Below, in pieces: positions 5,148-20,096 of a stretch of DNA of 64,000 nucleotides. The DNA comes from Pedobacter cryoconitis (lineage in GTDB: Bacteria; Bacteroidota; Bacteroidia; Sphingobacteriales; Sphingobacteriaceae): the NCBI RefSeq assembly GCF_014200605.1, contig NZ_JACHCE010000001.1, positions 1 to 64,000 on the forward strand, given 5' to 3'. Positions within the stretch are counted from its first letter, which is position 1. The number at the start of each line of letters is the position of its first letter. Position numbers and translations under genes: made by a program. The notes beneath the pieces were generated by a model. That model saw only the letters and a program-made list of their open reading frames with translations, was not told the origin of the DNA and did no database searches.

Positions 5148-5186
5148 AAGGGCATTTTGTAATTAAACAAAATGCCCTTTTCTTAT
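5148..5186. terminator. Bidirectional terminator between convergent genes
   Basis: A 13-bp perfect stem (AAGGGCATTTTGT at 5148-5160 against 5167-5179) has the loop AATTAA and a T-rich tail on the plus strand. It serves the DUF4142 gene. On the minus strand it overlaps the tail of the 602-residue gene, whose stop is at 5183. Confidence 0.88.
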
Positions 5187-6991
5187 CCCTGAACTCTAAC
5201 AGGGTCAAGAACCTGAGTGATCAGTTTTAATTTCTCTTCAGCTTTCTGTAACTGATGATGTAATTCCTGGGCAGCCATATCTGTCTGTAGTTTTAATTCA
5301 GGAATCAGTTCTCTGTAATAGTTAATTCCTTTAAATAGCTCCTCTCTGAATTTTTCAAAGTATTTAGTCTTCTTCGCATTTAAATCATGCAATTGCGCAC
5401 TCAGGTCTTTTTTCAGGTAGTCAACATATAAATGCAGCTCATTTATAAATAAATTTGGGCGATTGAATTTGAAAGTGATTGTTTCCCTTCCATAAATATG
5501 ATTGATCATTTCTTTCAGTGTATACTGTCTGGAGAAATAAGCCAGATTTGGACCAGGACAAATACTTACTGCTTTATTCTCTCTGGGTTTTAGCATATCA
5601 TTCTTTAGATAAGCTGACGCACAAAGCCCTTCACACAGACAAATTTTCTCAGTAATCGCTTCAAACTTCCTGGCAAAGAGTACAGGATCTTGCTCAGTCG
5701 CTTCCAGTTGTTTAATTTTTAAATGCTGGTATTCTCTGGACGCTGTACAAATTGGCAATGCAGTAAATTCAGTATTTGTAGACAAAAACTTTTTCGTACA
5801 GGGGCTGCCTGGTCTTCCTTTTTCTATCCTTTGTAAACGTTGTTCTTCTATGGTGCTATTTCTGAAATTATTAAACAATACCCCTAAAGGCGACGAATCG
5901 CTTACATAAAAATCATCCTGTTTCGCTTTTGTCAGTGCCTCTAATGTTTGCGTATCCACGTTAGTCGCTTCAGGAACTAATAGAAAGGGGCTTCCCCATC
6001 CGGTAGCATCCAATTGATAATAGTTAAGCAGAAAAGCATTTTCTCCTGCAGTACCAATTCCGCCCTGAGCTGTAAACTTGAGTATAGGGTCCTGAAGTAT
6101 AGAAATGCCTTTATTTAATAACGCATTTTGATAGATCGCTGATAATTCTTCACGCAGTTCATTTCTCTTTTGCTTAAATTCTTCTAAAATCGGGCCTAGC
6201 AGTAAACCTTCTGTTGCAAAAGCATGGCCTCCGCAATTCAGACCTGATTCTACCCTGAATTCAGCTACCCAAAGCCCCTTTTTAGCAAGCATTTTTGCCT
6301 GTATTAAAGCTGATCTGAAATCACTGACTTTCAAAATGATTTTCTTTTTAATCTGCCCGTTTAAATCAGGATAGAAATCAAGACAATTTTCCATATACGT
6401 ATAGAGTCTTGGATTCAAACCAGCAGATATAACAACTGATGAAGCTAATTTACTGTTCCCAAAACCTCTCATCGCGGCAAGCGCATCTGTATAATCGTTT
6501 CCTAAGTTTTCCAGATCAGCTGTGTAATTCGCCTTATCCACTTTAGACATGATATTCACATCAATATTTCCTGCTTTCATTTGCAAACGTAATTCCTGTT
6601 GCAGACTTTCTTTTGCTGTTCCTTCAGGTAATTGAAGCATCTGAAGATACTGGGCTTTCAGTATAGATTTTTCAGGAAGCAGTTCAAAATAAGTATGGAT
6701 ATCTGCCCCTGTTACAAATGGTTCATTTTTTAGTGCGTTAAACTGCCGGTCAACCAGTTGACTGATTAAATCAAGATAAGCGGTTATCCTTTTTGCACGG
6801 CCATCATTATCTTCTTTTTTAATCAGTGTATAATCAAGATTATTTGCTGCAGAATGGAACTTCCTCATTCGCTCTGTCAGTTCATCATCAACGATAGAAA
6901 GGACAGAAGAAATACCATATCTGGCCACTTTTAAAGGAGTGTCAATGGAGTAGCCTAATCCCAAAACGGGTATGTGAAAAGTGTGGGTCAT
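5183..6991 (-). CDS. Uncharacterised 602-residue protein, possible flavin TIM barrel with Cys-rich C-terminal half
   Basis: I recognise no named enzyme. Residues of about 8-340 have features reminiscent of FMN-binding TIM barrels of the nitronate-monooxygenase/glutamate-synthase type: GLGYSIDTPLKVARYGI at 11-27, a conserved-looking ESGLNCGGH at 248-256, AQGGIGTAGEN at 308-318, and ATGWGSPFLLVPEA at 329-342. The second half contains C398, C415, a C451-x-C453-x3-C457 group and C478 in CPGP, spacing that could hold an iron-sulfur cluster. Residues 510-600 are helical and probably coiled coil. No signal peptide or membrane segment is visible, so it is cytoplasmic. An FNR-type box at 7049-7062, with a near -7 box (TATTTTG, 7025-7019) 33-34 bp further on, places it in the low-oxygen regulon. 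The flavin and Fe-S assignments are inferences. Confidence 0.75.
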   Translation of the reverse strand: MTHTFHIPVLGLGYSIDTPLKVARYGISSVLSIVDDELTERMRKFHSAANNLDYTLIKKEDNDGRAKRITAYLDLISQLVDRQFNALKNEPFVTGADIHTYFELLPEKSILKAQYLQMLQLPEGTAKESLQQELRLQMKAGNIDVNIMSKVDKANYTADLENLGNDYTDALAAMRGFGNSKLASSVVISAGLNPRLYTYMENCLDFYPDLNGQIKKKIILKVSDFRSALIQAKMLAKKGLWVAEFRVESGLNCGGHAFATEGLLLGPILEEFKQKRNELREELSAIYQNALLNKGISILQDPILKFTAQGGIGTAGENAFLLNYYQLDATGWGSPFLLVPEATNVDTQTLEALTKAKQDDFYVSDSSPLGVLFNNFRNSTIEEQRLQRIEKGRPGSPCTKKFLSTNTEFTALPICTASREYQHLKIKQLEATEQDPVLFARKFEAITEKICLCEGLCASAYLKNDMLKPRENKAVSICPGPNLAYFSRQYTLKEMINHIYGRETITFKFNRPNLFINELHLYVDYLKKDLSAQLHDLNAKKTKYFEKFREELFKGINYYRELIPELKLQTDMAAQELHHQLQKAEEKLKLITQVLDPVRVQG

Positions 6992-7048: not shown

Positions 7049-7062
7049 ATGACATGGATCAT
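7049..7062. promoter_or_regulatory. FNR-type operator, class II position for the 602-residue gene
   Basis: ATGAC-ATGG-ATCAT is a dyad with the half-site geometry of CRP/FNR proteins (TGA-N6-TCA). Its centre at 7055.5 lies 33.5 bp from the centre of TATTTTG on the minus strand (7025-7019), a -7 box lacking one spacer base. That puts the operator near -41.5. Confidence 0.7.
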
Positions 7063-7092: not shown

Positions 7093-7106
7093 ATGACTTA
7101 TATCAT
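7093..7106. promoter_or_regulatory. FNR-type operator, class II position for the 108-residue membrane gene
   Basis: ATGAC-TTAT-ATCAT has the same half-sites as the box 44 bp to its left. Its centre (7099.5) is 33 bp from the centre of GATATTTG at 7129-7136, a 7-of-8 match to TAnnTTTG. The two boxes therefore serve the two divergent genes separately. Confidence 0.7.
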
Positions 7107-7156: not shown

Positions 7157-7483
7157 ATGGCAACTTTAACATTAAACACCGCCCCATCCCTTAGTCTATG
7201 GTCTAAATACTTAAACTTTGCGGATAGTCAGAAGCCAAATCACTTAGGCTGGTTTTTAGTTTCTATTGTTTTACACGCTACCATACTGGTTCCATTAACT
7301 TTTGTTGTGGTGTATTCATTAGGTGGTCATGTGATTCCATGTCTGGCAGCCAGTATGCTGATCTTCTTCGCTAATATTGTGGCAAATATGAGCAGTGCAA
7401 GTACCAGGGTAACCATAGGCGTATTTTATTTAAGCTTATTAATTCATGCAGTTATACTTGCAGTTACCGTTGCAGGTATCTAA
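7157..7483 (+). CDS. Small integral membrane protein, unknown
   Basis: 108 residues that I cannot assign to a family. The first 30 residues are polar (a short cytoplasmic or periplasmic tail). Three hydrophobic segments follow at about 30-53 ([20 protein letters not shown]), 60-80 and 85-107. A His sits in the first and third segments (H40, H97). It starts 50 bp after an FNR-type box and lies directly ahead of the oxygen-sensing kinase gene, which has its own -7 box at 7501-7508. The context suggests a role in low-oxygen respiration, but nothing in the sequence shows what it does. Confidence 0.75.
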
Positions 7484-7520: not shown

Positions 7521-8720
7521 ATGGAAAAAGCAAGGTTATTAGAGGCAATTATTGAAACAGCCATTGATGGAATTATCACTATTGATCAAAGAGGAAAAAT
7601 AGAAAGCCTTAACCCTGCGGCACTTCAACTTTTTGGATATACAATAGAAGAGGTTATCGGGCAAAATATAGCTAAGCTTATGCCCGAACCTGACAAGGGA
7701 AGACATGACGGCTATCTTTCCAAATACCACGATACCGGTGAAAAACATATCATTGGTAAAGGGCGTGAAGTCAAAGGACTTCGGAAAGATGGCTCTACAT
7801 TTCCTTTCAGATTGGCTGTAAGTGAGGTGCAATATGAAAACCGGAAAATATATACTGGTTTTATCCATGATCTGTCTAAAGAAAAAGAAGCAGAAGAACG
7901 TTTGCAGGAATATGCTGCAGAACTGGAAAGCCTGGTTGAGGAACGGACTAAATCATTAAAAAAGACTGTCACTGCTTTAAGAGAAGCAAAAGAAGAGGTT
8001 AGTTTATCACTTGAAAAAGAAAAAGAGCTGAACCAGATGAAAAGCAGGTTTGTCTCTATGGCATCCCACGAATTTCGTACCCCACTGAGTTCGGTACAGC
8101 TTTCTGCTTCTCTTATTGAAAAATATGCGCAGCCTTTTCAAAACTCAAATATTGAGAAGCATGTACATAAAATAAAAAATGCTGTAGGTAACCTGACTAC
8201 CATCCTTAACGATTTTCTATCTCTTGAAAGACTGGAAGCCGGAAGGGTAGAACCTGCATTTCAACCTTTTGATCTGGTTAAATTAGCAGAAGAAATTACG
8301 GAAGAGATGCAGATGATTGCCAAGCAGGATCAAAACATTATCTATCAGCATACAGGACTGGAAAGTATGGTCTCACTGGATCAGAACCTGTTAAAAAATT
8401 GCATGATCAACCTGATCAATAATGCAATCAAATACTCCGGAGAAAATACTTTTATTGAGTTTAATACTGAAATTAATGAACAGCAGTATCTGATTACGAT
8501 CAAAGATAACGGGATCGGGATACCTGATACTGATCAGAGACATTTATTCCAGCCATTTTTCAGGGCACATAATACCGGAAATATCCCCGGCACAGGTTTA
8601 GGTTTAAATATCGTACTCCGGTATGTAGGCCTGATGAATGGCGAAGTGCAATTTGAAAGCGAAATCAATAAAGGCACTAAATTTACCCTATCTTTCAATA
8701 AAAAGGGAGCAATTCAATAA
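7521..8720 (+). CDS. FixL-like haem-PAS sensor histidine kinase
   Basis: 399 residues, soluble. The PAS domain (about 5-120) carries the FixL haem-pocket signature: the proximal haem ligand His of FixL corresponds to H62 (GRHDGYL), the distal His to H76 (EKHIIG), and the oxygen-stabilising Arg to R82 (KGREV), all at FixL spacing. FixL R206 is replaced by K68. A coiled coil (about 122-170) leads to the HisKA domain with phosphoacceptor H183 in MASHEFRTPL. The ATPase domain has N300 in the N box, DNGIGIP at 329-335 and GTGLGL at 357-362. By homology it autophosphorylates when haem loses oxygen. The partner is almost certainly the regulator encoded 24 bp downstream. Oxygen sensing is inferred from the pocket residues. 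Confidence 0.9.
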   Translation: MEKARLLEAIIETAIDGIITIDQRGKIESLNPAALQLFGYTIEEVIGQNIAKLMPEPDKGRHDGYLSKYHDTGEKHIIGKGREVKGLRKDGSTFPFRLAVSEVQYENRKIYTGFIHDLSKEKEAEERLQEYAAELESLVEERTKSLKKTVTALREAKEEVSLSLEKEKELNQMKSRFVSMASHEFRTPLSSVQLSASLIEKYAQPFQNSNIEKHVHKIKNAVGNLTTILNDFLSLERLEAGRVEPAFQPFDLVKLAEEITEEMQMIAKQDQNIIYQHTGLESMVSLDQNLLKNCMINLINNAIKYSGENTFIEFNTEINEQQYLITIKDNGIGIPDTDQRHLFQPFFRAHNTGNIPGTGLGLNIVLRYVGLMNGEVQFESEINKGTKFTLSFNKKGAIQ

Positions 8721-8744
8721 TCAGAATAGAATTCAATACATAGC

Positions 8745-9809
8745 ATGGAACACAGGAAACAAAGGATATTGATTATTGAAGACAATGACGATATCAGAGA
8801 AAGCACAGCGGAAATACTTGAACTTGCCGATTATGAGGTTTTCCAGGCTGACAATGGAAAGGCAGGAGTAGAAATGGCACATAGCCATCTGCCAGATCTG
8901 ATTTTATGTGATATTATGATGCCGGAACTTGATGGCTACGGTGTACTTTATTTACTGAATAAAAACCCGGAAACAGCGGCAACCCCTTTTATTTTCTTAA
9001 CTGCAAAAGCCGAGAGAATGGATATGCGTAAAGGGATGGAAATGGGTGCTGACGATTACCTGGTTAAACCTTTTGACGATGTCGAACTGCTAAATGCTAT
9101 AGAAAGCCGTTTTAGCAAAAGAGAAAAGCAAGAGATCTTTTATAGTAAGTCAATTGATAAATTAAACAACCTGGTTTCCTCCAACCAGGGTATCAAAGAG
9201 CTGGATAAACTCATGCTCGATCGTAAAGTCCGTACCATTAAAAAGAAGCAGATCATCTATTATGAAGGGGATACTGTTTCGGGAATTTATCTCGTACTCA
9301 GTGGAAAGGTAAAAACCATTAAACTTTCCGAAGATGGGCGAGAGCTTTTAACAGGGATGTATGGGGCCGAAGAATATTTTGGAATCCCGGCCCTTTTATT
9401 AAATGAACCTTATGCTGAAACTGCTGAAGCATTGGAAGATACAACTGTATGTCAGCTCCCTAAAGAGACGCTTGATGAATTGCTTAACCGCTATCCGGAT
9501 GTGGCCCGTCAGTTTATTCAAATTCTTTCTAATAATCTGCTCGACAAAGAAGAACAATTATTGCAATTAGCTTATCATTCTGTCCGTAAAAGGATGGCAG
9601 AAGTGCTGATACGCCTATGTAAACTGGAGAAACAAGATGGGCAGATTATCCTGCGTATTTCCAGAGATAATCTTGCTGCAATGGCAGGAATGGCTACAGA
9701 AACAGTGAGCCGGATTCTAAGTGATTTCAAAGATGAGGGCATTATTGAGCGAAAAGGAAGTCAGATCGGGATCATTGATCAGACGAAGCTTCAGCAAATG
9801 AAAAACTGA
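8745..9809 (+). CDS. Response regulator fused to a CRP/FNR-type DNA-binding module
   Basis: 354 residues in three parts. The receiver (6-122) has acidic pocket E12/D13, phosphoacceptor D56 (CDIMMP), T86 and K108 (LVKPF). The cyclic-nucleotide-binding-type jelly roll is at about 150-260. The Crp helix-turn-helix (about 275-350) has recognition helix TETVSRILSDF, in which E319, S322 and R323 occupy the positions FNR uses to read TTGAT half-sites. The four-Cys Fe-S cluster of FNR is absent (only C55, C236 and C292 are present), so oxygen input must come from the kinase. Its likely targets are the six TGA-N6-TCA dyads in this window. The arrangement is a FixJ receiver joined to a FixK-like effector. 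Confidence 0.9.
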   Translation: MEHRKQRILIIEDNDDIRESTAEILELADYEVFQADNGKAGVEMAHSHLPDLILCDIMMPELDGYGVLYLLNKNPETAATPFIFLTAKAERMDMRKGMEMGADDYLVKPFDDVELLNAIESRFSKREKQEIFYSKSIDKLNNLVSSNQGIKELDKLMLDRKVRTIKKKQIIYYEGDTVSGIYLVLSGKVKTIKLSEDGRELLTGMYGAEEYFGIPALLLNEPYAETAEALEDTTVCQLPKETLDELLNRYPDVARQFIQILSNNLLDKEEQLLQLAYHSVRKRMAEVLIRLCKLEKQDGQIILRISRDNLAAMAGMATETVSRILSDFKDEGIIERKGSQIGIIDQTKLQQMKN

Positions 9810-9819
9810 TCCAGATCAT
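9806..9819. promoter_or_regulatory. FNR-type operator (distal) upstream of the ldh-like/hemN pair
   Basis: CTGAT-CCAG-ATCAT is the closest match in the window to the classical FNR box (TTGAT-N4-ATCAA). It overlaps the stop codon of the regulator gene. It lies 22 bp upstream of a second dyad, so the promoter may bind two dimers. Confidence 0.6.
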
Positions 9820-9892: not shown

Positions 9893-10351
9893 ATGAGAGT
9901 AGTAGCCTATAGTATAAAATCTTTTGAAAAAGAGCCACTGGCAATAGCCAACCATAAAAAACATGATATTACGTTAATATCCAATTCGCTGAGTCCTGAT
10001 ACCGTGAGTTATGCGGCAGGAAAAGAGGCTGTTATCGTCTTTACAGAGGATGTAGTCTCGGCAGCTGTAATTAATAGCCTGGCCGATCTGGGAGTGAAAT
10101 ATATCGCTACCAGATCTACGTCAACCGTGCATATTAACCAGCAGGCAGCAGCCAGCCGTAATATTAAAATCGCTAATGTTCCTGCAATTTCGCTAATGGC
10201 GGATACTGCCGATGAACTATCCCTCGCACTTGCCAGAGAAACGATCTTAAACCTTGATAAATGGCAGCAAAACCGCTGTTTGGGTTCTGCCTGTGTTTGT
10301 TCGAAAGCCTGTGATCAGGTTCATCCTAAAAGCCCTGATCATGAGCATTAA
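9893..10351 (+). CDS. Truncated D-lactate-dehydrogenase-like domain with Cys-rich tail
   Basis: 152 residues from MRVVAYSIKSF; an upstream in-frame start at 9869 would add eight residues, but it lies on or before the predicted transcript start. The sequence follows the N-terminal catalytic domain of fermentative D-lactate dehydrogenases (AYSIKSFEKEPL, the LADLGVKYIATRS block with the substrate-type Arg, NVPAISLMADTADE). It stops before the Rossmann NAD-binding domain, which is about half the normal 330 residues. It ends instead in a tail with four Cys (CLGSACVCSKAC) and several His. Without the cofactor domain it cannot be a dehydrogenase; metal or haem-related binding is a guess. Its last bases overlap the start of hemN. 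Confidence 0.8.
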   Translation: MRVVAYSIKSFEKEPLAIANHKKHDITLISNSLSPDTVSYAAGKEAVIVFTEDVVSAAVINSLADLGVKYIATRSTSTVHINQQAAASRNIKIANVPAISLMADTADELSLALARETILNLDKWQQNRCLGSACVCSKACDQVHPKSPDHEH

Positions 10352-11705
10352 ACAATTGATAGCGAAATACCATGTTGCTGCCCCGCGTTATACAAGTTAT
10401 CCTACAGTTCCTTACTGGAATGCAGAAGGATTTGATCAGGAGAAATGGGCACAGGCAGTAAGTGAATCTTTTACACACAGCAATCATCAGGACGGGATCA
10501 GTTTATATATACATCTGCCTTTTTGTGAAAGTCTATGTACCTATTGTGGATGTAATACACGGATTACGCGTAACCACAAAGTAGAAAATCCTTATATTGA
10601 GGCAGTATTGAAAGAGTGGTCCTTATACCAAAAACTTTTTGACGATAAACCTATCATCCGTGAACTGCATTTAGGTGGGGGTACACCTACCTTTTTCAGC
10701 CCTGAAAATCTTGAACTGCTGATCAGTGGGATTCTTAAGCCAGCTACTGTCCATACCGACGCAGAATTTAGCTTTGAAGCGCATCCTTCCAATACAACAC
10801 AGGCTCATTTAGATACTTTATATCAATTGGGGTTTAAGCGTTTGAGTCTTGGTATTCAGGATTTTGATCCTAAAGTACAACTGGCAATTAATAGGATTCA
10901 AAGTGTCGAAGAGGTATTACTGGTTACTGAACAGGCAAGAACTATAGGTTATCATTCTGTCAATTATGATCTGATTTATGGTCTTCCCCTACAAAATATA
11001 GAAGGGTTATCGGATACTATAGCATCAGTACTGGCTTTAAGACCAGACAGGATTGCTTTTTACAGTTATGCACATGTACCATGGGTAAGACCGGGACAGC
11101 GCAGATATACCGAAATGGACCTTCCTTCTGCTGCAGAAAAGCAGGAATTATACGAGCTTGGACGTGAAATGTTAAAAGCAGGGGGGTATATAGAAATAGG
11201 AATGGATCATTTTACACTAGCTACCGATAGCTTATATACCGCGGAAAAAGAAGGCAGGTTACACCGTAACTTTATGGGATATACCCATCAGTACAGCAAG
11301 CTGATGATCGGTTTAGGCGTTTCGTCGATTAGTGACAGCTGGACAGCTTTTGCACAGAATGTAAAAAAGGTAGAGGATTATATCAGTTTGGTTAATGCAG
11401 GTGAAATTCCTGTTTTTAAAGGGCATATACTTGATCAGGAAGACCTGGTAATCAGAAGGCATATCTTAAACCTGATGTGTAAAGGAGAAACATCCTGGGC
11501 TCAGCCAGAGGAGCAGAGTATTGGTTTTATGAAAGGATTGGAACGAATGACCTTAATTGCTGATGATGGATTAGTAATGATCAAAGGCACAGAGTTAAAA
11601 GTAACCTTATTGGGAAAACGATTTTTAAGAAATATCTGTATGGCACTCGATTCAAGACTTTACGTTAATCAGCCGCAAACACAACTATTCAGTATGGCAG
11701 GCTAA
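10341..11705 (+). CDS. hemN: Oxygen-independent coproporphyrinogen III oxidase
   Basis: 454 residues, the usual HemN length. It decarboxylates coproporphyrinogen III to protoporphyrinogen IX with S-adenosylmethionine, replacing the oxygen-requiring HemF when oxygen is low. The radical-SAM cluster motif C-x3-C-x2-C is at about 60-70 (FCESLCTYCGCN), followed by the LHLGGGTPTFF glycine-rich SAM site. The C-terminal HemN domain (about 350-450) is present. The start at 10341 (MSIKQLIAKYHVAAPRYTSYP) matches the conserved HemN N-terminus and overlaps the preceding stop in ATGAGCATTAA. It is co-transcribed with the ldh-like gene from a promoter with two FNR-type boxes, and it supplies haem for the adjacent cbb3 oxidase. 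Confidence 0.95.
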   Translation: MSIKQLIAKYHVAAPRYTSYPTVPYWNAEGFDQEKWAQAVSESFTHSNHQDGISLYIHLPFCESLCTYCGCNTRITRNHKVENPYIEAVLKEWSLYQKLFDDKPIIRELHLGGGTPTFFSPENLELLISGILKPATVHTDAEFSFEAHPSNTTQAHLDTLYQLGFKRLSLGIQDFDPKVQLAINRIQSVEEVLLVTEQARTIGYHSVNYDLIYGLPLQNIEGLSDTIASVLALRPDRIAFYSYAHVPWVRPGQRRYTEMDLPSAAEKQELYELGREMLKAGGYIEIGMDHFTLATDSLYTAEKEGRLHRNFMGYTHQYSKLMIGLGVSSISDSWTAFAQNVKKVEDYISLVNAGEIPVFKGHILDQEDLVIRRHILNLMCKGETSWAQPEEQSIGFMKGLERMTLIADDGLVMIKGTELKVTLLGKRFLRNICMALDSRLYVNQPQTQLFSMAG

Positions 11706-15249: not shown

Positions 15250-17361
15250 TTATTTGGCTTTAATATCAGTACCCAGGCGTTGCAGATAAGCGATGATCGC
15301 GATGATCTCCTTATCACTTTTTACCTTAATATTGTTTTGTTGTAAATCTGCGGCAATCGCTTTTGCCTGCTGATCAAGATCGGCGTTCGCTTGATGCTCA
15401 TAACCCAGTTCATATGGAACACCCAATGTGCGCATTGCATTGATTTTTACACGCGTTGTTGTGGTATCCAGTTTTTGTTCAGCAAGCCATTCATATGGAG
15501 GCATAATACTGCCTGGTGACATCGTTTGCGGATCATATAAGTGATTGTAATGCCAGGCATTTCCATATTTACCGCCTTCACGCTGTAAATCCGGTCCGGT
15601 ACGTTTTGATCCCCATAAAAATGGGTGGTCATAAACAAACTCTCCGGCTTTACTATATTCTCCATAACGCTCAGTTTCGGAACGGAATGGGCGGATCATC
15701 TGAGAGTGACAGTTGACACAACCTTCTCTGATATAAACATCCCTGCCCTGTAATTCTAATGGCGTATATGGTTTTACACTTGATATCGTCGGGATATTAG
15801 ATTTAATAGTGAATGTGGGCATCATTTCAATCATCCCCCCAATCAGAATTACAATCAGTGAAAGCACCATGAAAATCATTGGTTTACGTTCCAGCATACG
15901 GTGTAATTTCTTATCGTCGCCCTGAGCCACATAAACCTGAGGTAAAGGCTGTGCTTCTGCAGCTTCATTGGCTACAAGTTTACCAGCTTTCATGGTTTTG
16001 ATCAGGTTATAAGTCATTACAATTACTCCTGTCAGATATAATGCACCACCAATGGCTCTCATTACATACATCGGGATAATCTGCATCACAGTTTCCAGGA
16101 AATTTGGATATTTTAATACACCTTCGGGGGTGAACTCTTTCCACATTAAGCCCTGTGTAAATCCAGAGAAATAAAGTGGGACAGCATAAAATATAATTCC
16201 CAGTGTACCTATCCAGAAATGGAAAGAGGCTAGTTTTACAGAGTATAATGTAGTATTGTATATTCTTGGGATCAGCCAGTATAAAATAGCGAAAGTTAAG
16301 AATCCGTTCCAGCCTAAAGCACCTACATGGACGTGTGCAACTATCCAGTCTGTATAATGTGCAATGGCATTAATCTGTTTAAATGCTAATAACGGACCTT
16401 CAAAAGTGGCCATACCATAGGCTGTTAAACCTACAACCATAAATTTAAGTTTAGGATCTTCTCTTACTTTATCCCAGGCACCACGTAAAGTAAGCAGCCC
16501 GTTAATCATACCACCCCAGCTTGGGGCAATCAGCATTACTGAGAAAGCTACGCCTAAAGATTGTGCCCATGAAGGCAATGAAGTATATAACAAGTGGTGT
16601 GGGCCTGCCCAGATATAAATAAAAATAAGTGACCAGAAATGCAGGATACTCAGCTTGTAGGAGTATACCGGGCGATTAGCCATTTTTGGTAAAAAGTAAT
16701 ACATCATACCCAGGTAAGGCGTGGTCAGGAAGAATGCTACTGCATTATGTCCATACCACCATTGTACCAGGGCATCCTGCACACCTGCATAGATATAATA
16801 ACTTTTAAACGCTGAAACAGGTAATTGAGCAGAGTTGACAATATGAAGTACAGCTACCGTAACAAAAGTTGCAATGTAAAACCAGATGGCCACATACATA
16901 TGTTTTTCCCGTCTTTTAATAATTGTACCAAACATATTGTAACCAAAGACCACCCAGATTACTGTAATTGCGATATCTATCGGCCATTCCATTTCCGCAT
17001 ATTCATGCGAGCTGGTCAGTCCCAGCGGAAGCGTGATCACTGTTGCGATGATAATTAATTGCCAGCCCCAGAAATGTATTTTACTTAACACATCACTGTA
17101 CATCCTTGCTTTAAGGAGCCGCTGTAAAGAATAATAAACGCCCATAAAAATGGCATTACCTACAAATGCAAAAATTACCGCATTGGTATGTAATGGCCTG
17201 ATACGGCCGAAAGTTGTGTATTGGGAGCCCATATTCAGTGCAGGTTTGAAGAGCTGCATAGCAATCAGGAGTCCAACCGTCATTCCTACAATACCCCAGA
17301 TGATGGTGGCTAATGCGAAGTTTCTGACGATTTTGTTGTCGTAATGGAATTTTTCAGTCAT
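15250..17361 (-). CDS. ccoNO: CcoN-CcoO fusion, cbb3 cytochrome c oxidase subunits I/II
   Basis: 703 residues. The first 470 or so are CcoN, the twelve-helix haem-copper catalytic subunit, with conserved His blocks such as RPLHTNAVIFAF, WWYGHNAVAFFLT, GPHHLLYTSLP and DWIVAHVHVGALGWNG. A linker and one helix (about 500-518) join it to CcoO, a membrane-anchored cytochrome c with CVNCH at about 547-551 and the conserved SQMIRPFRSE. In many bacteria these are two genes; the fusion is common in Bacteroidota. The enzyme reduces oxygen with high affinity and pumps protons. A possible class I FNR-type box lies inside ccoS at 17439-17456. Confidence 0.95.
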   Translation of the reverse strand: MTEKFHYDNKIVRNFALATIIWGIVGMTVGLLIAMQLFKPALNMGSQYTTFGRIRPLHTNAVIFAFVGNAIFMGVYYSLQRLLKARMYSDVLSKIHFWGWQLIIIATVITLPLGLTSSHEYAEMEWPIDIAITVIWVVFGYNMFGTIIKRREKHMYVAIWFYIATFVTVAVLHIVNSAQLPVSAFKSYYIYAGVQDALVQWWYGHNAVAFFLTTPYLGMMYYFLPKMANRPVYSYKLSILHFWSLIFIYIWAGPHHLLYTSLPSWAQSLGVAFSVMLIAPSWGGMINGLLTLRGAWDKVREDPKLKFMVVGLTAYGMATFEGPLLAFKQINAIAHYTDWIVAHVHVGALGWNGFLTFAILYWLIPRIYNTTLYSVKLASFHFWIGTLGIIFYAVPLYFSGFTQGLMWKEFTPEGVLKYPNFLETVMQIIPMYVMRAIGGALYLTGVIVMTYNLIKTMKAGKLVANEAAEAQPLPQVYVAQGDDKKLHRMLERKPMIFMVLSLIVILIGGMIEMMPTFTIKSNIPTISSVKPYTPLELQGRDVYIREGCVNCHSQMIRPFRSETERYGEYSKAGEFVYDHPFLWGSKRTGPDLQREGGKYGNAWHYNHLYDPQTMSPGSIMPPYEWLAEQKLDTTTTRVKINAMRTLGVPYELGYEHQANADLDQQAKAIAADLQQNNIKVKSDKEIIAIIAYLQRLGTDIKAK

Positions 17362-17428: not shown

Positions 17429-17623
17429 TTATCTCCCTAAGTGATCTTCATCACTTTTTTCTTCATTACTGGTTTCCTGATGGTCTTCTTCTTCAAAAAG
17501 TATCCTTATGCCAGGGGTAAAGAGATCATCATGCTGACCAGATTTACTAGCCCAGAAAAAGGCCAGCAGAAAGAGCAGTGCTAATAAAATACTGAAGCCT
17601 ATCAGCATGTAGATCATGTTCAT
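17429..17623 (-). CDS. ccoS: CcoS, cbb3 oxidase maturation protein
   Basis: 64 residues: one N-terminal helix (about 4-26, IYMLIGFSILLALLFLLAFFWA) followed by the family block SGQHDDLFTPGIRILFEEE and an acidic tail. CcoS is needed for insertion of redox cofactors into the cbb3 oxidase. Its ATG overlaps the ccoI stop (17620-17623). Its last codons contain a perfect FNR-type palindrome, so the 3' end doubles as the control region of ccoNO. Confidence 0.92.
   Translation of the reverse strand: MNMIYMLIGFSILLALLFLLAFFWASKSGQHDDLFTPGIRILFEEEDHQETSNEEKSDEDHLGR
17439..17456. promoter_or_regulatory. FNR-type operator inside the end of ccoS
   Basis: AAGTGAT-CTTC-ATCACTT is a perfect 7-4-7 dyad with TGAT/ATCA half-sites. 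It is 86 bp upstream of the ccoNO start, and the gap between ccoS and ccoNO (67 bp) is large for this otherwise tight operon, consistent with an internal promoter. Confidence 0.7.
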
Positions 17624-20010
17624 AATAAATGGTTTTTACGGGCGTAAAACCGGGCGGTTAAACTGGTAAATAGTATAATCGTGATGGTACTCAAAGGCAT
17701 TAGTATTGCCGCCATCAGCGGAGAAAGTAAACCTTGTACGGCAAAGAATAATCCAGCTGCATTGTAAAGCAAAGAGATAACAAAACTCATATGGATTACT
17801 TTTACTGCATCTTTGGCCTGCTTAATAAGTTGCGGTATCTTTTTAAAAGCGGCCCCGTCCAGTATGGCATCACAGCCGGGAGAGAAATTATTAATATCGT
17901 CTGTGACTGCTATACCCAGATTACTTTGTTTTAATGCCCCGGCATCATTCAAACCATCACCAAGCATCATTACTTTGGCTCCGGTTTGCTGTAGCTGAAG
18001 GATATAATCCAGTTTCTGCTGCGGACTTTGCTGAAAATGTAACTGCTGTGTCCTTGGGAAAAATGGGGTGAGGAGTTTTCGGTCATGGTCCTGATCTCCA
18101 GATAACAGATGCAAATCAGATTGCTGACCTAGTTTTAAAGCGAGTTGTTTAAACCCTTCTCTCCAGCGTTGCGAAGAGCGGAAATAGCCGCAATAGTGGT
18201 GTTCAATCAGGATATGAACTACACTGCCCTGATCTTGTGTATTTAATCCCAAATGGGCAGCGCTTCCTAATTTTACTTCATGGCCATCCACGCAGCCACT
18301 AATTCCGCGGCCCACTTTTTCTTTATATTGTTCTACCAGGAACTGAGGTCTGAGGTTAAGCCATTTAACCAGTTCCCTGCTTAGCGGATGTCCTGAGTTT
18401 CTTGCCAGATCGCAGACCAGTTGTCTTTCATATTTGTCCATCTTACCACTAAAATCAAAGCCAGCAGCATCTGGATTAGTAATTGTTCCTGTTTTATCAA
18501 AAACAATAGTATCAATCCTGGCTAGTTCTTCTATAACTGCCGTGTTTTTTAAATAGAATTTATTCTTGTCAAATATGCTGAGTACAGCGGCTAAAGTGAA
18601 AGGAGAGCTCAAAGCGAGAGCACAGGGGCAGGCAATAATTAATACAGCGGTAAATGAAGCTACAGCCTTGTTGATATCGGTACTGATCCAGTACAGGCCT
18701 GCTGCAAGGGCTATAGCGACCAGAACAATACTAAAATAACGGCTTGCAGTATCGCTAAAGGTCTTAATCGGATCTCTTTGTCCGCAGAAAGCTTCATTGT
18801 TCCATAATTTAGTGAGATAGCTCTGAGAAACGGGTTTGACTACTTCAAGTTCAATAGCACCGTTCAGCTGTCTCCCGCCCGCATAAACGATCTCACCCAA
18901 TACTTTTTCTACAGGCAGAGATTCTCCTGTAACAAAGCTGAAGTCAAGTTTGGCCTCTCCTTTTAATAATATAGCGTCTGCAGGGATAATTTCATTGCTG
19001 CGGATCAGAATACGGTTACCTGTTTTTAGCTCATTCAGCGGAAGTGGCTTTTCTTTGCCATCTTTTAACTGCGTTACTGCCACCGGAAAGTAAGAGCGGA
19101 AATCACGCTCAAATGAGAGATAATGGTATGTGCGTTTTTGCATCCATTTACCAATCAGAAGAAAGAATACAAGTGAACACAGGGTATCGACAAAACCGGC
19201 ACCAGTCTGGGTAATAATTTCGTAAGCAGAGCGAAGAAACATAACAGCAATACCCAGCGCAAGTGGAAAATCCAGGTTTAATACTCCATTTTTAAGATTT
19301 GTCCATGCAGAGATAAAATAGTCCCTGGCACTATAAAGCAATACCGGAATCGCAAAAGCCAGGTTAATCCATCCAAAGAAGTTTTTGAAATCCTGCTCGA
19401 AGCTGTTCAGGCCAAAGTAATCGGGGAAACTTAGCAGCATTACATTTCCAAAACAGAAACCTGCAACTGCAATTTTGGTAAAAAGATTACGTTCAGAATG
19501 ATCAGTCCTTTGCTTTTTGATCATATCCTGTAAACTGATTAAGGGCTCATAACCAATTGCACTCAATGTTTCTACGACCTGACGCAAAGAAATTTCCTGA
19601 TTTTTAAAGGTAATGCTAACCTGTTTTTTCAAAAAATCTACACGTGACTGTGAAATAGCAGGATTGATCTTATACAAATGTTCCAGTAACCAGATACAGG
19701 AACTGCAATGGATAACAGGAATAAAAAGTGTAATAACAGTGACTTTAGGATCTGTATAATCAACTAGTTCGGCTGCTATGCCTGGCTCGTCAAGATAGTT
19801 GAAATGCTGTGCTTTTTTTTGCTGTGAGCTTCCTGGTACATCGTTATACAGATAATAACTGGATAGGTGATGATCAGATAGAATCTGATAAACACCTTTA
19901 CAGCCAAGACAGCAAAATTGTTTGTCTTCAGCGAAATATGCGGTCTCAGGGAGATTGTCGCCGCAGTGAAAACAATGTGTTTCTACTTTTAAGCTGTTTG
20001 TTTCTTTCAT
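17620..20010 (-). CDS. ccoI: CcoI/FixI copper-exporting P1B-type ATPase
   Basis: 796 residues from the start at 20010, which has a good GGAGG Shine-Dalgarno just upstream. Longer in-frame starts reach 20049 but lose it. The N-terminus has a Cys/His-rich zinc-ribbon-like patch (HCFHCG, FCCLGCKG) and a heavy-metal-associated domain with CSSC. Eight membrane helices surround the CPC ion motif (IIACPCALALS). The P-type motifs are the phosphorylation loop DKTGTIT, the actuator TGES, HPLS and GDGLNDAGAL. FixI-type ATPases deliver copper for the cbb3 binuclear centre. It overlaps ccoS by four bases. Confidence 0.95.
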   Translation of the reverse strand: MKETNSLKVETHCFHCGDNLPETAYFAEDKQFCCLGCKGVYQILSDHHLSSYYLYNDVPGSSQQKKAQHFNYLDEPGIAAELVDYTDPKVTVITLFIPVIHCSSCIWLLEHLYKINPAISQSRVDFLKKQVSITFKNQEISLRQVVETLSAIGYEPLISLQDMIKKQRTDHSERNLFTKIAVAGFCFGNVMLLSFPDYFGLNSFEQDFKNFFGWINLAFAIPVLLYSARDYFISAWTNLKNGVLNLDFPLALGIAVMFLRSAYEIITQTGAGFVDTLCSLVFFLLIGKWMQKRTYHYLSFERDFRSYFPVAVTQLKDGKEKPLPLNELKTGNRILIRSNEIIPADAILLKGEAKLDFSFVTGESLPVEKVLGEIVYAGGRQLNGAIELEVVKPVSQSYLTKLWNNEAFCGQRDPIKTFSDTASRYFSIVLVAIALAAGLYWISTDINKAVASFTAVLIIACPCALALSSPFTLAAVLSIFDKNKFYLKNTAVIEELARIDTIVFDKTGTITNPDAAGFDFSGKMDKYERQLVCDLARNSGHPLSRELVKWLNLRPQFLVEQYKEKVGRGISGCVDGHEVKLGSAAHLGLNTQDQGSVVHILIEHHYCGYFRSSQRWREGFKQLALKLGQQSDLHLLSGDQDHDRKLLTPFFPRTQQLHFQQSPQQKLDYILQLQQTGAKVMMLGDGLNDAGALKQSNLGIAVTDDINNFSPGCDAILDGAAFKKIPQLIKQAKDAVKVIHMSFVISLLYNAAGLFFAVQGLLSPLMAAILMPLSTITIILFTSLTARFYARKNHLL

Positions 20011-20046
20011 AAGAAATTCTTTCCTCCAAAAGTGAGGGCATAATCT

Positions 20047-20054
20047 CAATCTTA
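20047..20054 (-). promoter_or_regulatory. Possible -7 box for ccoI
   Basis: TAAGATTG on the minus strand is a seven-of-eight match to TAnnTTTG. Its centre is 35 bp from that of the FNR-type palindrome at 20075-20096. Confidence 0.4.
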
Positions 20055-20074: not shown

Positions 20075-20096
20075 AAAAGTGACGCAAGTCACTTTT
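20075..20096. promoter_or_regulatory. FNR-type operator upstream of ccoI
   Basis: AAAAGTGAC-GCAA-GTCACTTTT is a perfect 9-4-9 palindrome containing TGAC-N4-GTCA, the strongest dyad of the set. Its centre is 75.5 bp upstream of the ccoI start. It is the only obvious control element for the head of the eight-gene cco operon. It could also influence the divergent kinase gene starting at 20220. Confidence 0.75.

Follow-up and report, generated by a model that had tools for sequence, protein, structure and literature searches.

A gene for a 602-residue protein lies in the same region as a probable oxygen sensor, a hemN-like gene and cbb3 oxidase genes in the window, a stretch of 64,000 nucleotides of Pedobacter cryoconitis DNA, and raises the question of which reaction such a protein would contribute when oxygen is scarce. 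The original prediction had named no function for it; a relationship with the enzyme FabX supplies a concrete one. The 602-codon reading frame is located on the minus strand (5183..6991), a detail absent from that prediction, with its ATG at 6991 and its stop at 5185-5183, and its product comprises an FMN-type TIM barrel, a cysteine-rich putative Fe-S module and a helical tail. It is a genuine conserved gene, since relatives with 48-88% identity, found at 32 genome loci, are widespread and have the length and the start (MxHTFHIPV) in common. Of 101 genomes from the family Sphingobacteriaceae, 60 contained the gene, as did 111 of the 296 Bacteroidota genomes sampled at E<1e-100 (114 at E<0.001), and as a rule there is one copy per genome. 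Rare relatives (L022, L025, L029 and L031), all from MAGs, carry the labels Elusimicrobia, Melioribacteraceae and Proteobacteria. The copy in L031 (9872-11772) is split by a frameshift, and genome G193 carries a second, decayed copy. In two unrelated records the gene is adjoined by what appears, by eye, to be a tryptophanase/tyrosine-phenol-lyase-like gene (L020, 2930-4336; L023, 6217-7590).

Sequence searches gave little indication of a function. The protein scored above no Pfam or NCBIfam cut-off, its tail giving coiled-coil-like noise (CDH, 16 bits), and at E values up to 1 it matched neither PF03060 (nitronate monooxygenase, Pfam) nor TIGR02814 (PfaD, NCBIfam). A sequence search of the PDB returned apolipoprotein and other helical proteins, which were discarded as tail noise, and FabX (7e1q) was matched there by neither phmmer nor a profile search. 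No published description of the family was found in literature searches.

An AlphaFold model, built from an alignment of 22 sequences, had a pTM of 0.80 and a mean pLDDT of 77, with a good barrel at about residues 1-368 (5888..6991, minus strand). The FMN-type TIM barrel that had been proposed for the first half of the protein was thus predicted by AlphaFold and matched by Foldseek and VIA-align to the nitronate monooxygenase (NMO) superfamily; the motifs listed for it, GLGYSIDTP, CGGH (253-256), GGIGTAG and ATGWGSPF, are all present. With Foldseek, PfaD (4e-8) and FabX (8e-8) ranked highest, followed by trans-AT enoyl reductases and then NMO. With VIA-align the best match was FabX of Helicobacter pylori, 7e1q (Z 23.8 over 328 residues, rmsd 3.4), at 17% identity in the structural alignment, with FabK and NMO (Z about 21) and PfaD (20.7) as runners-up. 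Layouts like those of glutamate synthase and dienoyl reductase were also weighed; dienoyl-CoA reductase appeared solely at E 0.1, and glutamate synthase was absent among the Foldseek matches shown, though a remote relation may still exist. Assignment of the predicted fold and of the cofactor class to the FMN-binding NMO superfamily is well supported, and family and residues together suggest that the barrel holds a flavin.

A larger profile comparison was made with 71 homologues. Against a profile of two Bacteroidota FabX orthologues and a family of 419-426 aa Bacteroidales proteins (the 420-aa family, found among NMO-type matches in Bacteroidota and related to FabX by phmmer at 3.5e-27), the 71-member profile aligned with E 3e-8 and a probability of 95, the best local alignment spanning the barrel alone, to about residue 380. 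Decoys, being two NMO sets, a PKS enoyl reductase and IMPDH, gave E 0.03-0.36. When the 420-aa family was compared alone by hhalign, 272 columns aligned with E 9e-5, four cysteines included, against E 0.04 and 0.17 for the NMO sets of the same phylum. Because these two lines agree, fold and profile, the 602-aa protein is judged from model and sequence to be a distant relative of FabX. The family is a divergent FabX-like branch and was filed apart from FabX itself, because tests of the cysteine pattern and of direct similarity failed and an FMN-contact glutamine is missing. The 420-aa proteins (L120-L125, L127, L133-L162), which likewise have no NCBIfam model above cut-off, are candidate unsaturated-fatty-acid enzymes of anaerobes.

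In FabX, FMN is contacted by N99, E175, Q240, T243 and the glycines 180, 220 and 221, the catalytic His182 is held by S273, and C300, C304, C308 and C320 ligate the cluster (PMC8626469). Most of the barrel residues were recovered in the 602-aa protein: N99 corresponds to N146, E175 to E248, G180 to G254, H182 to H256, G220/G221 to G310/G311 and S273 to S367, in an S-P-L-G motif, while T243 falls on position 334, Ser or Thr in the family and S334 here. Q240 is not kept, its place being taken by Gly331. Across the 22-sequence alignment N146, E248, G254, H256, G310/G311 and S367 never vary, nor do N146, E248, H256 and S367 across the 71 sequences, and the CGGH, GGxGT and GWG[ST]PF cores are invariant or nearly so among the homologues. 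The helix aligned with the ACP-binding alpha7 region of FabX retains R226, K233, K237 and K238, by which the 602-aa protein may bind ACP.

The putative Fe-S module comprises residues 398-488 (5528..5800, minus strand). Conservation of the cysteines in homologues had been proposed as a check in the original prediction, and C398, C415, C451, C453 and C478 in this C-terminal part, together with C253, are invariant in 71 of 71. The set of cysteines proposed there therefore stands for C451-L-C453 with C398, C415 and C478, but not for C457, the third of the C-x-C-x3-C group; it is Cys in 22 of the 71 homologues and was ruled out as a cluster ligand. Four of the five are in register with the FabX-related 420-aa proteins by hhalign (C398/C319, C415/C332, C451/C358 and C453/C360). 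Since five invariant cysteines thus occur in one module, four of them in register with those proteins, this module likely binds an Fe-S cluster. The model is poor in the cysteine region (392-418 and 449-454), with a pLDDT of 40-60 for the module. Beyond the FabX-like part, the tail occupies residues 514-602 (5186..5452, minus strand) and gave weak coiled-coil-like matches only. Its helical nature, also foreseen, agrees with the helix that AlphaFold predicts with good confidence at 514-591.

Boxes of the FNR/Crp type were located with the consensus TGAYN4RTCA, of which the window contains 10 against 4.5 expected. The box that had been claimed for the 602-aa gene was found 59-70 bp before its ATG (TGACATGGATCA, equal to TGATCCATGTCA; 7050..7061), at a position kept in Pedobacter relatives of the gene. 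A second one (7094..7105) lies between the same two divergent genes, some 51 bp ahead of the ATG at 7157. Further boxes were found at 9807..9818 (TGATCCAGATCA), before a 152-aa gene and hemN, at 17442-17453, 81 bp before the start of the CcoN-CcoO fusion, and at 20080..20091 (TGACGCAAGTCA), before a CcoI/FixI-like Cu-ATPase (17620-20049). Within 200 bp upstream, 32 of 61 family loci have a box, compared to 64 of 747 other genes of the same loci (P 2.5e-16), and outside close Pedobacter 14 of 43 compared to 28 of 428 (P 3e-6), P values which are optimistic as related loci are counted as independent. Among the loci scanned, the box was missing upstream of many distant relatives.

A PAS histidine kinase with a FixL-like haem-PAS domain, a probable oxygen sensor, is encoded at 7521..8720 (plus strand), followed by a response regulator fused to a Crp/FNR effector, the probable activator of the regulon (8745..9809, plus strand). 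The PAS domain matched FixL 1dp6 at 1.5e-33, H62 and R82 aligning with chain positions 61 and 81, which we take to be His200 and Arg220. The REC-Crp/FNR protein has an E-T-V-S-R recognition helix, and on inspection of its sequence an N-terminal Cys cluster was not found, which speaks against an Fe-S FNR as the regulator. This suggests oxygen control through a FixL-type cascade and not through an Fe-S FNR. The FixL-J-K cascade is apparently collapsed into two proteins here (7521-9809), next to hemN and cco genes. The hemN-like radical SAM gene, for oxygen-independent haem synthesis, is located at 10344..11705 (plus strand) in an operon that is preceded by a box, and the CcoN-CcoO fusion at 15250..17361 (minus strand), where these subunits of the cbb3 oxidase are joined in a single 703-aa protein. 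The low-oxygen regulon supposed in the original prediction is backed by the conserved boxes and the adjacent FixL/REC-Crp pair, and low oxygen probably induces the 602-aa enzyme.

Two small genes of this region were also observed. Divergent from the 602-aa gene and with its own FNR-type box, a gene at 7157-7483 encodes a 108-aa membrane protein, kept in 11 loci, with no Pfam or NCBIfam match. The 152-aa protein (9893-10351) corresponds to the catalytic half of a D-2-hydroxyacid dehydrogenase on its own, the NAD-binding half being missing, and has a tail rich in Cys (CLGSACVCSKACD); the gene is conserved before hemN in 17 loci.

Read from the gene, family, fold, conserved residues and boxes established by computation, the 602-aa protein is proposed to be a FabX-like FMN/Fe-S enzyme of oxygen-sparing unsaturated-fatty-acid synthesis, with a probability of about 0.5. 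Its substrate would most likely be a saturated acyl chain attached to ACP or CoA. The alpha proton would be taken by His256 and a hydride by FMN, after which the product would be isomerised to a cis-3-enoyl thioester and elongated to unsaturated fatty acids; the Fe-S cluster would pass single electrons from FMNH2 to an acceptor. As FabX needs O2 in vitro, an acceptor other than O2 must be assumed for the 602-aa enzyme. Made at low oxygen under the FixL-type kinase and the REC-Crp/FNR regulator, the enzyme would replace oxygen-requiring desaturases as HemN replaces HemF, and would be the lipid counterpart of HemN. With HemN for haem and the 602-aa enzyme for lipids, an economical account is obtained in which oxygen-free steps are swapped in at low oxygen.

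The genome of P. cryoconitis contains oxygen-dependent fatty-acid desaturases; FabA above cut-off, FabX and a 420-aa relative were not found in it. An anaerobic route to unsaturated fatty acids is thus not apparent, and the 602-aa family is a concrete candidate for one. Among the 296 genomes the family never occurs together with FabX/420-aa genes (0 found, about 24 expected if independent), and of the 111 genomes with the gene 82 also have desaturases and 29 have no PF00487 match at E<=1e-15. Mutual exclusion and desaturase pattern, both confounded by clades, are consistent with functional replacement. No fatty-acid gene was found beside the 602-aa gene in any locus examined; as the FabX and 420-aa genes examined have no fab neighbours either, this is uninformative for its substrate. 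The neighbourhood survey gave no conserved neighbour outside Sphingobacteriaceae. In gonococci, a homologue of FabX is reported to be indispensable for making unsaturated fatty acids anaerobically, its acceptor being given as unknown (PMC11300592).

Other functions were weighed against this proposal. A role in nitrosative stress or denitrification, as a flavin/Fe-S oxidoreductase acting at low oxygen on nitro compounds, nitronates or NO-derived products, would suit the NMO-type fold and some neighbours of the gene, all recognised by eye: ScdA/RIC-type di-iron repair genes (L018, L021 and L036), an NsrR-like Rrf2 regulator in 5 of 55 loci, a NorC-like cytochrome c (L020) and, in Pedobacter, truncated globin genes. 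However, no NO-related neighbour is conserved across families, the nearest profile relatives are FabX-type and not plain NMOs, and genes of anaerobic respiration would cluster with the 602-aa gene under the lipid proposal too, so that this function appears unlikely. Slightly less likely still is a part in some other acyl pathway, as a dehydrogenase or enoyl reductase: a trans-acting, PfaD-like one for special lipids or polyketides, or one of anaerobic fatty-acid oxidation, and not one that serves unsaturated membrane lipids. PfaD chains do have the best Foldseek E-value (4e-8), and CGGH recurs in an enoyl-reductase domain of PKS type that the same genome encodes, but TIGR02814 is unmatched, the PKS reductase gave no profile alignment (E 0.03) and the 602-aa gene stands alone, outside any PUFA or PKS cluster.

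The unusual helical tail and the regulation shared with the cbb3 oxidase and the FixL-type sensor would also fit an electron-transfer or redox-sensing flavoprotein of the low-oxygen regulon, without an acyl substrate and with the tail docking a partner. Nearly all catalytic-site residues of the relatives that act on acyl thioesters are invariant in the family, which makes this the least probable of the alternatives, and improbable as such. The FabX-like lipid enzyme is therefore retained as the preferred reading. In a fuller form, an undescribed family in more than one third of the sampled Bacteroidota would make unsaturated fatty acids free of O2 by a FabX-like reaction; this is put forward tentatively, at somewhat less than even odds, as is its extension to a differently wired Fe-S module, a non-O2 acceptor and a FixL-type switch shared with HemN and the cbb3 oxidase. 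If true, Fe-S chemistry in the NMO superfamily would be extended beyond FabX, a common conserved hypothetical gene would be explained and membrane lipid synthesis would be tied to a FixL-type oxygen regulon.

Among known systems, nitronate monooxygenases and FabK (PF03060) have the fold and the catalytic His in common with the 602-aa protein, but lack a sequence-profile match and a cysteine module. PfaD and the trans-acting enoyl reductases (4z9r, 6lkc) share the TIM barrel, a similar length and, in the related PKS domain, a CGGH-like motif, while the NCBIfam PfaD model is unmatched; we know of no comparable cysteine module in them. The 420-aa family shares the C-L-C-x-[GN]-[LM] motif and the four aligned cysteines. 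It is shorter, occurs in two Bacteroidota families of the sample and never in a genome with the 602-aa gene, and its module reads C-x12-C-x25-C-L-C-x7-CxxC, with a CxxC (C368, C371) where the 602-aa protein has the single C478.

The closest functional parallel would be FabX of H. pylori (HP0773, PDB 7e1q), an FMN/[4Fe-4S] acyl-ACP dehydrogenase/isomerase which converts decanoyl-ACP to cis-3-decenoyl-ACP. Both have the NMO-superfamily TIM barrel, the Asn, Glu, GGH and GGI motifs of the FMN site, the catalytic His with its Ser partner (S-P-x-G), a C-terminal Cys module and a basic helix in the ACP region, a likeness detectable by profile or fold alone. FabX is shorter (363 aa against 602 aa), the helical tail being extra in the 602-aa protein, and its cysteines are spaced CX3CX3CX11C, compared to CX16CX35CXCX24C; the Bacteroidota FabX orthologues (L163, L164) have the FabX-like CX3CX3CX7C. 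Homologues of FabX have been counted at >50% identity (PMC8626469), well above the 17% of the structural alignment. NGO1024 (UfaA) of Neisseria gonorrhoeae, a FabX homologue cited in PMC11300592, is reported to serve anaerobic unsaturated fatty acid synthesis in a bacterium that lacks FabA, and this is the role proposed here for the 602-aa protein.
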